Of a stretch of 64,000 nt of DNA, positions 21,343 to 27,298 are shown one piece after another (position 1 is the stretch's first letter; the number at the start of each line of letters is the position of its first letter). Below the pieces are notes generated by a model. The model was given only the letters and a program-made list of their open reading frames with translations. It did no database searches and was not told where the DNA came from. Source of the stretch: Catellatospora paridis (GTDB lineage Bacteria > Actinomycetota > Actinomycetes > Mycobacteriales > Micromonosporaceae); contig NZ_ML769314.1 in assembly GCF_009720365.1 (NCBI RefSeq), positions 363,264 through 427,263 on the forward strand, in the 5' to 3' direction. The translations under genes and the position numbers were made by a program.

Positions 21343-22278
21343 TCAGGCGGCGGCAGTGCGCGCGTCGAGTGCCTGACGATACAAGCGACCGGCCCGGTAT
21401 GACGAACGCACCAGGGGGCCGCTCATCACGCCGGCGAAGCCGATCTCCTCGGCCTCCTCGCGCAGCTCGACGAACTCCTCGGGCTTCACCCAGCGCTCGA
21501 CGGGGTGGTGGCGCGGGGTGGGGCGCAGGTACTGCGTGATGGTGATCAGCTCGCAGCCGGCCTCGTGCAGGTCGCGCAGCGCCTGCGAGATCTCCGCGCG
21601 CTCCTCGCCCATGCCCAGGATCAGGTTCGACTTGGTGACGAGCCCGGCCTTGCGGGCCTTGGTGATCACGCCGAGGGAGCGGTCGTAGCGGAACCCGGGG
21701 CGGATGCGCTTGAAGATGCGCGGCACGGTCTCCACGTTGTGCGCCAGCACCTCGGGCGCGGCCGAGAAGACCTCGGCCAGCTGCTCCGGCACGGCGTTGA
21801 AGTCGGGGATCAGCAGCTCGACGCCGCAGCCGGGGACGAGGGAGTGGATCTGGCGGACCGTCTCGGCGTACAGCCAGGCGCCGCCGTCTGGCAGGTCGTC
21901 GCGGGCGACGCCGGTCACGGTGGCGTACTTCAGGCCCATGGTGGCGACGGACTCGCCGACCCGGCGGGGCTCGTCGGCGTCGAACTCGGCCGGCTTGCCG
22001 GTGTCGATCTGGCAGAAGTCGCAGCGGCGGGTGCACTGGTCACCGCCGATGAGGAAGGTCGCCTCGCGGTCCTCCCAGCACTCGTAGATGTTGGGGCAGC
22101 CGGCCTCCTGGCACACCGTGTGCAGGCCTTCCCGCTTCACCAGCGAGCTGAGCTGGGTGAACTCCGGACCCATCTTCGCCTTGACCTTGATCCACTCAGG
22201 CTTACGCTCGATGGGGGTCTCGGCGTTACGGGCCTCGACGCGCAACAGGCGCCGGCCCTCAGGAGCGACGATGGTCAT
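21343..22278 (-). CDS. lipA: Lipoyl synthase
   Basis: Radical-SAM enzyme that inserts two sulfurs into protein-bound octanoyl groups to form lipoate. The 311-aa protein has both iron-sulfur motifs: the auxiliary cluster Cys56-x4-Cys61-x5-Cys67 ('[12 protein letters not shown]') and the radical-SAM Cys82-x3-Cys86-x2-Cys89 ('CTRRCDFC'). The C-terminal '[11 protein letters not shown]' supplies the RSSY serine that ligates the auxiliary cluster. I chose ATG 22278 ([18 protein letters not shown]), which gives the standard actinobacterial N-terminus; extension to 22380 would add 34 residues into the control region. lipB lies 4.3 kb away, separated by unrelated genes. Confidence 0.96.
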
Positions 22279-22384
22279 GCCCGCCAGCGTACGCGGAGAA
22301 ACAGCCTTGATCTTCTGCTGGGTAACGGACGTCTCAGCCCCGACGCGCCCGGAAAAACGGGCTGCGCGGCTCCCGATCATGGTC

Positions 22385-22588
22385 TACAGTCTCCGCTCAA
22401 CAGCAGTGACGGGGTGAATCACCGGAGTGACGCCCGGGTCGGGACGGCGTGCAGCCGCCCGTGTGGCTCCGCTCACGCGCTGGTAGAGGCCCGGATCATC
22501 CGGGTGAAGGTGTGGTGGCACCGCGGGTTCCCAAACCGCCCACACCCCTTTGGGGATGGCGTTGCGGAAGAACCCGGAGGTACCCACC
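22385..22588 (+). promoter_or_regulatory. T-box riboswitch leader of the AspRS gene
   Basis: The diagnostic T-box core TGGCACCGCG is at 22516-22525. GGTGTGG (22509-22515) pairs with CCACACC (22540-22546) to form the antiterminator/antisequestrator stem around it. A stem III-like hairpin CCCGGATCATCCGGG precedes it, and AGTGA words upstream could start specifier loops. Alternatively CGGGTT after the core can pair with AACCCG just before the GGAGG ribosome site, which suggests translational control by uncharged tRNA, as in actinobacterial ileS leaders. I could not fix the specifier codon; GAC at 22443-22445 is one candidate for Asp. Confidence 0.8.
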
Positions 22589-23866
22589 ATGCAACGCATC
22601 CTTTCCGTCGAACTGCCCCGCCATGTGGGCGCACGGATCACCATCGCCGGCTGGATCCATCGCCGCCGGCTGCTCAAATCGGTCTCCTTCCTCATCGTGC
22701 GCGACGCGTCCGGGCTCAGCCAGGTCGTGGTCACCGAGCCGGAGCTGCGGGCCCACCTGGAGACGCTGCCCGAGGAGACCGTGGTCGCCGTCGAGGGCCT
22801 GGTCACCGCGAACCCGGCCGCGCCCGGCGGGGCGGAGCTGACCGAGCCGGTGGTACGCCTGCTCGGCGAGCCCGCCCAGCCGACGCCGTTCGACCTGTAC
22901 CGGCCGGTGCTGACGCCGACCCTGCCCACCCAGCTGGACCACGCCCCGCTGTCGCTGCGCCACCCGTCCCGGGCCCGCGCGCTGCGGATCAGTGCAGCGG
23001 CCGCGGCCGGGTTCCGCGAGGGCATGGACACGCTCGGCTTCACCGAGATCCACACGCCCAAGATCGTGGCGACGGCGACCGAGTCCGGGGCGAACGTGTT
23101 CGCGCTGGACTACTTCGGCCGTCCCGCCTACCTGGCCCAGTCGCCGCAGTTCTACAAGCAGCAGATGGTCGGCGTGTTCGAGCGGGTGTACGAGGTCGGC
23201 CCGGTGTTCCGGGCCGAGCCCAGCGACACCACCCGGCACCTGGCCCAGTACACCTCGCTCGACGCGGAGCTGGGCTTCATCGGCGACCACCGCGACGTGA
23301 TGGCGGTGCTGCGCGAGACCGTGGCGGCCATGGTCGCCCGGGTCGGCGCGCTCGGCGCGGCCGTGGCGGGCCTGGAGCTGCCCGAGGTGCCGGCTGAGAT
23401 CCCGGCGCTGCACTTCAGCGAGGCGCTCAAGATCGCTGGTGCGCCGGCGGACGAGCCCGACCTGGCGCCCGCGCACGAGCGGGCGATCGGCGAATGGGCC
23501 AAGCGCGAGCACGGCAGCGAGTTCGTCTTCGTCACCGGCTACCCGATGGTGAAGCGGCCGTTCTACACCCACCCGCAGCCCGGCGACGAGCGCTGGTCGA
23601 ACAGCTTCGACCTGCTGTTCCGGGGCCTGGAGATGGTCACCGGGGGACAGCGGCTGCACCGCTACAGCGACTACCTCGCGGCGCTGGCCGCGCACGGGGA
23701 GAGCGCCGAGCCGTACGAGCCCTACCTGCAGGCGTTCCGCCACGGGATGCCGCCGCACGGCGGGTTCGCGATCGGCCTGGAGCGCTTCGTCGCCCGCATC
23801 ACCGGGGCGCAGAACATCCGCGAGGTCACCGCGTACCCGCGCGACCTGCACCGCGTCACGCCGTAG
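22589..23866 (+). CDS. aspS: Aspartate--tRNA ligase, archaeal/eukaryal type (possibly non-discriminating)
   Basis: Class IIb aminoacyl-tRNA synthetase of 425 aa, far shorter than the ~590-aa bacterial AspRS and lacking its GAD insertion. The N-terminal OB fold binds the anticodon ('ARITIAGWIHRRRLLKSVSF'). Motif 2 is 'VGPVFRAEPSDTTRHL' followed by 'YTSLDAELGFI', and motif 3 is 'GGFAIGLERFVARI'. Enzymes of this type often aspartylate both tRNA-Asp and tRNA-Asn, feeding GatCAB amidation, so a second, specialised AspRS is plausible here; an AsnRS-like activity cannot be excluded. ATG 22589 follows a strong GGAGG at 22576-22580. The gene is headed by a T-box leader and is divergent from lipA. Confidence 0.85.
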   Translation: MQRILSVELPRHVGARITIAGWIHRRRLLKSVSFLIVRDASGLSQVVVTEPELRAHLETLPEETVVAVEGLVTANPAAPGGAELTEPVVRLLGEPAQPTPFDLYRPVLTPTLPTQLDHAPLSLRHPSRARALRISAAAAAGFREGMDTLGFTEIHTPKIVATATESGANVFALDYFGRPAYLAQSPQFYKQQMVGVFERVYEVGPVFRAEPSDTTRHLAQYTSLDAELGFIGDHRDVMAVLRETVAAMVARVGALGAAVAGLELPEVPAEIPALHFSEALKIAGAPADEPDLAPAHERAIGEWAKREHGSEFVFVTGYPMVKRPFYTHPQPGDERWSNSFDLLFRGLEMVTGGQRLHRYSDYLAALAAHGESAEPYEPYLQAFRHGMPPHGGFAIGLERFVARITGAQNIREVTAYPRDLHRVTP

Positions 23867-26635: not shown

Positions 26636-27298
26636 TCAGACGGCGAGCAGGGTCGGGAGGTGGCGTTCCACGATGGGGAGGACCTCGTCGACGGTGATCT
26701 CGCGGCCGAGTTCGGCGCTGAGCGAGGTGACCGAGGCGTCGGTGATGCCGCAGGGCACGATGCGGTCGAACCACGTCATGTCGGGATTGCAGTTGAGCGC
26801 GAAGCCGTGCAGCGAGACGTTGCGGGCGACCCGGATGCCGATCGCGGCGACCTTGCGGTCCGGGCCGCGGTCGTCCTCGCGCACCCATACGCCGGAGCGG
26901 TTGTTGCCCTTGATCCGGGTGGTGGCGACGCCGAGTTCGGCGCAGACGTCGATGAGCATCTGCTCGGTACGCCGCACGTGCGCGACCACGTCGGCAAGCC
27001 CGCCGCGCTGCACCGGCAGCTCGATGATCGGATAGCCGACGAGCTGCCCCGGCCCGTGCCAGGTGATCTTGCCGCCGCGGTCCACGTCCACCACCGGGGT
27101 GCCGTCGAACGGGCGCTCCCAGGCCTCGGTGAGCTTGCCGGCGGTGTACACGCTCGGGTGCTCCAGCAGCAGCACGGTGTTCGGCTCGCTGCCCTCGACG
27201 ACGCCGGCGTGCAGACGGCGCTGCTCGTCCCAGGCGGTCTGATACTCGACGGTGCCGGCGCGGCGCACCGCGAGTGCCGGCGAGACGATGCTGGTCAC
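26636..27298 (-). CDS. lipB: Octanoyl-[acyl-carrier-protein]:protein N-octanoyltransferase
   Basis: First enzyme of lipoate synthesis: moves octanoate from ACP to the lipoyl-domain lysine. The 220-aa protein carries the thioester nucleophile Cys183 in 'RIVPCGITD', the catalytic Lys149 in '[10 protein letters not shown]', and the signature '[18 protein letters not shown]'. GTG 27298 gives a normal N-terminus. It supplies the substrate for the lipA product encoded upstream; the two genes are separated by about 4.3 kb and convergent transcription units, so they are not cotranscribed. Confidence 0.96.

Follow-up and report, generated by a model that had tools for sequence, protein, structure and literature searches.

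Why should a bacterium place a short, archaeal-type aspartyl-tRNA synthetase (AspRS2) behind an RNA switch, and which tRNA would such a switch read? The question is raised by a 64,000-nucleotide stretch of Catellatospora paridis DNA (the window), in which an earlier note had proposed a translational T-box, responsive to uncharged tRNA-Asp or tRNA-Asn, upstream of such a gene. The aspS2 gene (22589–23866; it and all leader features given here lie on the forward strand) begins at ATG 22589, and its 425-residue product lacks the bacterial insertion domain, as expected of the archaeal type. A profile search with NCBIfam NF003483 gave 522.8 bits (cut-off, 353), and the nearest solved structure was Thermus AspRS2 (1n9w, E = 1.8e-105); these protein searches were run on 22592–23863, that is, minus the first residue. 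The Shine-Dalgarno (SD) sequence GGAGG lies at 22576–22580. We place the T-box 5' leader, start codon included, at 22398–22591, using the covariance match described below and an alignment that starts at CAACAGC and sets the window leader against 9 others from its genus; this conservation would put the 5' end at about 22398. No sigma-70 promoter match was found for the aspS2 leader, and no intrinsic terminator was found in 22300–22620. On one side of aspS2 lies the divergent lipA; on the other, at a greater distance, come an HtpX-like protease gene and lipB (21343–22380, 26636–27298).

The GGTGTGG/CCACACC stem that the note had pointed out around TGGCACC is present. It constitutes helix A1 (22509–22515/22540–22546) of a predicted antisequestrator (22509–22546), with helix A2 formed by GCGG/CCGC (22523–22526/22536–22539) and the T-box bulge UGGCACC (22516–22522) lying between the two helices; the UGGC of the bulge is complementary to a GCCA 3' end. 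Directly upstream, Stem III (22485–22508; CCCGGA, tca, TCCGGG) is flanked by AGAGG and TGAA, in agreement with the RRRNG ... AA motif in the available text of PMC7778990.

To compare this element with its relatives, we assembled two sets of loci. The first consisted of 35 loci with a related AspRS from a scan of genome contigs, 30 of which carry TGGNACC with an antisequestrator upstream; none was found upstream of L016, L027, L030, L032 and L035. The second consisted of 80 hand-picked genomes (33 of the 36 AspRS2 matches in a 394-genome sample and 47 among the family matches listed), in which 63 upstream regions contain the motif by the strict pattern and 3 more leaders carry the variant TGGCACCGGGAG with a compensating CTCCC, giving 66/80. 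Together with the window and the 30 of the first set, the total is 97 leaders; 86 of their cores are distinct, and some genomes are represented by several rows.

In an alignment of 35 rows (34 distinct leaders, window included; L095 and L099 left out), A1/A2 pairing is kept in 95.1% of the cells, with double changes at 7 of the 12 pairs. None of 500 shuffles reached these values, and pairing fell to 36–58% when the partner columns were slid by 1 to 3. A covariance model made from this alignment, R1, matched the window at 22506–22548 with 61.6 bits (E = 1e-15), the runner-up scoring 13.9 bits. On 28 test loci R1 recovered 7/7 held-out aspS2 leaders at 57–67 bits and the ileS leader at 22.6 bits; L095 and L099, both absent from the alignment, were recovered by R1. 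Over the whole C. paridis genome, the aspS2 leader was the one clear match, with the ileS leader second (22.6 bits, E = 0.03). On the opposite strand of L035, a partial match (17.7 bits, E = 0.0064) was taken as chance, and of 8 weak matches at 26–32 bits, none of the 5 inspected resembles a leader. The leader as a whole (22385–22600) is not unusually stable (z = -1.32; 18/200 shuffles fold equally well), so folding energy by itself would have missed the T-box. The covarying antisequestrator and the NF003483 match of the AspRS2 protein support the proposal that a translational T-box stands in front of a short AspRS of archaeal type.

The search with the T-box model that the note had suggested as a check turned out differently, with an outcome that the note had named as refuting. 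RF00230 did not match: the T-box was found neither in the whole window at the gathering score nor in 22200–22700 at a relaxed threshold. Most likely, the miss is due to the reduced decoding module described below, since orthologous leaders match the model full-length below the gathering score. Positions 1–219 were matched in 5 of the 10 orthologous leaders scanned (L082, 67.0 bits, E = 2.5e-13; L117, 47.8; L099, 46.3; L120, 46.1; L048, 38.6), with no match in the other five (L053, L110, L062, L101 and L061). Such leaders, mostly of the same bacterial family, resemble the canonical model over this length, whereas the window leader lacks the long Stem I and is unmatched. At the gathering score, which is a curation threshold and not a biological definition of a T-box, RF00230 was found in 1/20 related loci (L025). 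By descent, the window element is best regarded as a T-box; the Rfam model misses its reduced forms. L025 (2691–2926) belongs to a Chloroflexia MAG, where a T-box of 100.4 bits stands before an archaeal-type AspRS.

How would this element control translation? The alternative pairing that the note had described is real: CGGGTTC (22524–22530) is complementary to GAACCCG (22570–22576), beside GGAGG. In the lowest-energy free fold it forms part of a sequestrator (22510–22592), in which GUGUGGUGG is predicted to pair with CCACCAUGC (22510–22518/22584–22592), ACC with GGU (22520–22522/22579–22581) and CGGGUUC with GAACCCG. Beyond the pairing that the note had described, this OFF hairpin, according to the energy model, pairs UGG and the A1 5' strand with the AUG region. 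Because the sequestrator pairings involve the T-box sequence, that sequence would hide both the SD and the AUG. The free fold of the 3' part was computed at -42.7 kcal/mol, compared with -36.6 kcal/mol with the antisequestrator enforced.

By the energy model, the window can thus adopt mutually exclusive structures, whereas relatives give a mixed picture. The probability that the SD is unpaired is 0.54 in the ON fold of the window and 0.40 in the free fold; in examples from Kribbella, Nocardioides and Promicromonospora it is 0.00 free and 0.08–0.33 with the antisequestrator. SD openness is not raised in L002, L017 and L110 (ON, 0.37, 0.24 and 0.37, respectively; free, 0.40), and in L008, L056, L057, L117 and L120 the antisequestrator has a probability of 0.53–1.0 even without tRNA. 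The ON fold of the window keeps the AUG inside a start-codon hairpin (22559–22597), the arms of which are GCGTTGC (22559–22565) and GCAACGC (22591–22597). This hairpin, which joins the leader to codons 1–3, is present in 44/97 leaders, its leader arm ending 21–26 nucleotides before the start codon. The spacing to the start is held even in L102, L106, L114 and L115, whose T-box is more distant, and L095 shows a compensatory change.

We next consider which tRNA the leader would read. The specifier is GAC (22429–22431), the codon for tRNA-Asp, with a U before it and a purine after it; its assignment draws on its position in an apical loop and on comparison with the long leaders. The loop, AGTGACGC, is closed by CCGG/CCGG in a codon hairpin (22422–22437) whose stem covaries across leaders with such a small decoder: 7 distinct stem types keep 26/28 pairs, and 2/5040 permutations were as good. 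UGAC-purine occupies the apical loop of 19 representative small-decoder leaders (loops picked by reading), and GAC, as GAA-GAC, is found in 56/56 strictly classed long-Stem-I leaders. On reading, the off-pattern rows L048, L051, L053, L066, L068, L089 and L099 still carry GAC at the specifier place, and L095 has UGAC within a short hairpin loop. AAC was not seen at that place wherever the specifier was readable. As a control, the same type of leader before serS in genome G225 reads UCC, a serine codon.

The T-box bulge agrees with this assignment. The bulge base of UGGC fits G73 of both tRNA-Asp genes found in the C. paridis genome, and UGGU before ileS of the same genome fits A73 of tRNA-Ile. 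The fourth bulge base reads C in 80 of the 97 leaders and T in the other 17 (L095 and L099 possibly misplaced). A tRNA family search of the genome gave 62 loci, 30 of which were opened; both tRNA-Asp genes come from those 30, and tRNA-Asn was absent among them. The ligand of the window leader thus appears to be tRNA-Asp, not tRNA-Asn: the first half of the note's alternative stands on GAC and the UGGC/G73 match, and the second falls with the lack of AAC. The two tRNA-Asp(GUC) genes (L146 and L151) differ from each other, and one lies beside tRNA-Trp.

The note had also advised looking for a second, bacterial-type aspS, and one was found in the genome at 697.5 bits. A bacterial AspRS is present in 67 of the 80 hand-picked genomes and absent in 13. 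The T-box leader occurs in 66/67 genomes with both AspRS types and in 0/13 with the archaeal type alone; upstream of aspS2 in these 13, R1 found nothing better than E = 2.4. In the lone exception with both enzymes, L103, the start codon occupies the place expected for the leader, as though a deletion had removed it. Redundancy with the bacterial AspRS appears to be the strongest correlate of the leader. This rule has few independent contrasts, since the 13 genomes with AspRS2 as sole AspRS come from one family, f39, to which G168, having both enzymes and a T-box, also belongs. The 13 (L067 and L069–L080) are an observation in their own right, being genomes with archaeal-type AspRS and without a bacterial AspRS match or a T-box.

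Across 388 genomes of an overlapping sample of the class, R1 scored at least 45 bits at 25 places: 22 before aspS2, 1 before serS and 2 before bacterial-type aspS. L136 and L137 (G305 and G128) are T-boxes with the small GAC decoder that precede a bacterial-type aspS, and neither genome gave a match for archaeal-type AspRS; UGAC stands in the hairpin loop of both leaders by reading, and the protein was confirmed for G305 and judged by sequence for G128. The 22 include G007, whose match, seemingly 3 kb off aspS2, sits immediately upstream of the opening part of an interrupted copy. At this locus (L173, G007:C895:1–4800), either ~3 kb of other sequence interrupts an aspS2 with a T-box or the contig is misassembled.

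Taken together, the leader is very probably a translational T-box that reads tRNA-Asp via GAC and controls a redundant archaeal-type AspRS. When tRNA-Asp is charged, the sequestrator (22510–22530 with 22570–22592) would form and translation would be off. Uncharged tRNA-Asp would pair through its anticodon with GAC and through its GCCA end with UGGC, locking the antisequestrator and freeing the ribosome site. Most likely, the leader induces a spare AspRS, which would be made when the housekeeping enzyme fails to keep tRNA-Asp charged. The match between leader and enzyme redundancy suggests such a design, in which failure of the main synthetase would switch on the spare.

What the spare would be for is a separate matter. 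AspRS2 could be a resistance-type enzyme, insensitive to a natural AspRS inhibitor and switched on by the T-box when the housekeeping enzyme is poisoned. A second copy of a different type, inducible by uncharged tRNA-Asp, a symptom of inhibition, speaks for this, as does the 66/67 co-occurrence rule. On the other hand, no inhibitor or gene cluster was identified, the neighbors tested being lipA, the HtpX-like protease gene and lipB, and AspRS2 is over the cut-off in 241/300 family genomes, a wide spread for a producer's self-resistance gene. We regard resistance as possible but doubtful; it is compatible with the spare-AspRS explanation, as a purpose and not as a mechanism.

The note had gone further and linked the leader, should the enzyme be non-discriminating, to GatCAB-dependent Asn-tRNA synthesis. 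Some of what this requires is in place. No asnS over the cut-off was found in the C. paridis genome or in the 80 hand-picked relatives (0/80), and gatB, the one gatCAB gene covered, is present in the genome. AspRS2 has H and P where the discriminating enzyme of T. kodakarensis has W26 and K85, and the housekeeping AspRS of the genome carries RRRDHGG; we take both features to mark non-discriminating enzymes. Both AspRSs look non-discriminating, so that Asn-tRNA synthesis should not depend on the archaeal-type enzyme.

It could still be that AspRS2 is the non-discriminating enzyme supplying GatCAB, a role reported for T. thermophilus and D. radiodurans, and that the T-box matches its level to the Asp/Asn supply. 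The absence of asnS, the presence of gatB and the H and P residues would fit, and C. acetobutylicum provides a precedent (Saad 2012, cited in the available text of PMC4206432). We consider this improbable, because the specifier is GAC, with AAC not seen at that place, and because the housekeeping AspRS with RRRDHGG should suffice, as it must in the 358 of 394 sampled actinobacterial genomes in which AspRS2 had no match. The specific link to Asn and GatCAB was accordingly not upheld. With an apparently non-discriminating housekeeping AspRS and the redundancy pattern, AspRS2 looks like an inducible spare and not like an Asn-specific enzyme.

How little RNA would be needed to read tRNA-Asp in this way? 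Judged from sequence and fold, the decoding module in the lineage of the window is cut to the codon hairpin and a plain second hairpin (22440–22461; CGGGaCGGC/GCCGCCCG), which is without the AGUA/GAA S-turn of Stem II; that motif was not found anywhere in the window leader. The minimum free energy fold encloses the module in a putative closing helix, P1 (22401–22482; CAGC/GCTG, GTGA/TCAC and CGGGG/CTCCG). Support for P1 from 16 leaders of other lineages is weak: in a constrained test, 4-bp matches occurred in 15/16 native leaders, compared with 72% of mixed pairs (63/5000 permutations as good), and there was no excess in the 3-bp constrained test (3050/5000) or, over mixed pairs, in the permissive, unconstrained test (1903/2000), so we do not build on P1. 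By eye, Stem I of the window has an asymmetric internal loop in which a clear K-turn was not discerned.

Within 130 nucleotides upstream of the T-box, AGUAGA was found in 0/33 small-decoder and 23/56 long leaders; the search could miss a diverged S-turn, the other 33/56 long leaders also being without the motif. For this reason, the claim that Stem II is missing rests mainly on hairpin and linker size: between the codon hairpin and Stem III, small-decoder leaders have at most a short plain hairpin, and the linker there is short. By reading, four architectures can be told apart. L117 and others of the large genus g2 (probably Micromonospora) combine a long Stem I with Stem II, Actinoplanes and Kribbella have a long Stem I without Stem II, and L053 and L095 have an ultrashort Stem I with Stem II. 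The fourth group, with an ultrashort Stem I and without Stem II, comprises Catellatospora, Allorhizocola, Nocardioides, Promicromonospora, L059, L061 and L101. On a tree of 35 AspRS2 proteins (L035, whose gene is cut, was excluded), the small decoder requires 3 changes, at least 2 of them forced by supported branches. A seeming loss of Stem I in L014 was rejected, since a long Stem I is present there; this locus has, in addition, ~200 nucleotides inserted between Stem I and the antisequestrator (about 2680–2900).

The combination of an ultrashort codon hairpin with no recognizable S-turn Stem II in the Catellatospora, Nocardioides and Promicromonospora leaders appears to be new. It is also unexpected, since the available passages on ileS T-boxes with a short Stem I treat Stem II, its S-turn and the pseudoknot IIA/B as essential (PMC7583486, PMC10651847), including the S-turn and IIA/B of N. 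farcinica ileS (PMC10651847). We hold it an even question whether these leaders form a minimal T-box class, in which a 7–9-nucleotide apical loop, carried by an ultrashort Stem I, would read the anticodon while both an elbow-binding distal Stem I and an S-turn Stem II are missing. Instead of a true loss, small-decoder leaders may contain a diverged S-turn or another tRNA contact.

That the window leader is a decaying T-box, its antisequestrator kept and its reduced decoder no longer binding tRNA, would suit the small decoder without recognizable S-turn Stem II or distal Stem I and the complete loss of the leader in L103, but it is very improbable, given that the codon hairpin does not vary among 10 leaders from the genus, that its stem covaries between lineages, and that a similar loop is retained in Nocardioides, Promicromonospora and before bacterial-type aspS in G305 and G128. 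Leaders without a recognizable Stem II make the claim that Stem II is essential directly testable. The paired losses are unexplained by current models of tRNA binding and offer a test case for the minimal RNA that such switches need; if the minimal class is real, the Stem I/Stem II combinations before orthologous genes would be a natural series for studying what tRNA binding requires.

One of the closest known systems is the translational T-box that precedes ileS in actinobacteria (N. farcinica, M. tuberculosis and L001 of the C. paridis genome), which likewise sequesters the SD, presents its specifier in an apical loop on a short Stem I and has a T-box bulge and Stem III. In contrast, the window leader would read tRNA-Asp rather than tRNA-Ile, the codon loop of its group is 7–9 nucleotides long compared with 6 (CCATCA) in ileS of the same genome, by eye, and the group has no recognized S-turn Stem II. 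In Clostridium acetobutylicum, one aspS among several has a T-box, which has been linked to tRNA-dependent amidation (Saad 2012, 2013, cited in the available text of PMC4206432); window-type leaders differ in being translational, actinobacterial and restricted to GAC. Thermus ND-AspRS2 (1n9w) shares the H and P residues with the window AspRS2. Thermus also encodes AsnRS (PMC4206432), whereas the C. paridis genome is without asnS over the cut-off and its aspS2 has a T-box.

An extra AspRS in Actinomycetales without AsnRS had already been noted in that 2014 survey (PMC4206432), the accessible part of which mentions no T-box there. The excerpts at hand name ileS as the T-box gene for Actinobacteria (PMC1262725, PMC2494555), and the aspS of PMC7927825 is given there as part of a hisS-aspS operon. 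According to the portion of PMC7778990 available, TBDB comprises 23,535 sequences, an actinobacterial class II set among them. Our literature search returned no recognized description of a T-box before aspS in Actinobacteria, and the aspS2 leaders may be a new variant within T-boxes, with the reservation that TBDB may list some of them. Actinobacterial T-boxes, described mainly before ileS in the source excerpts, here precede aspS of two enzyme types and, in one genome, serS. This last leader (L135, G225:C45:63070–63111, minus strand) is a T-box of the translational type with a UCC specifier in an actinobacterial genome.
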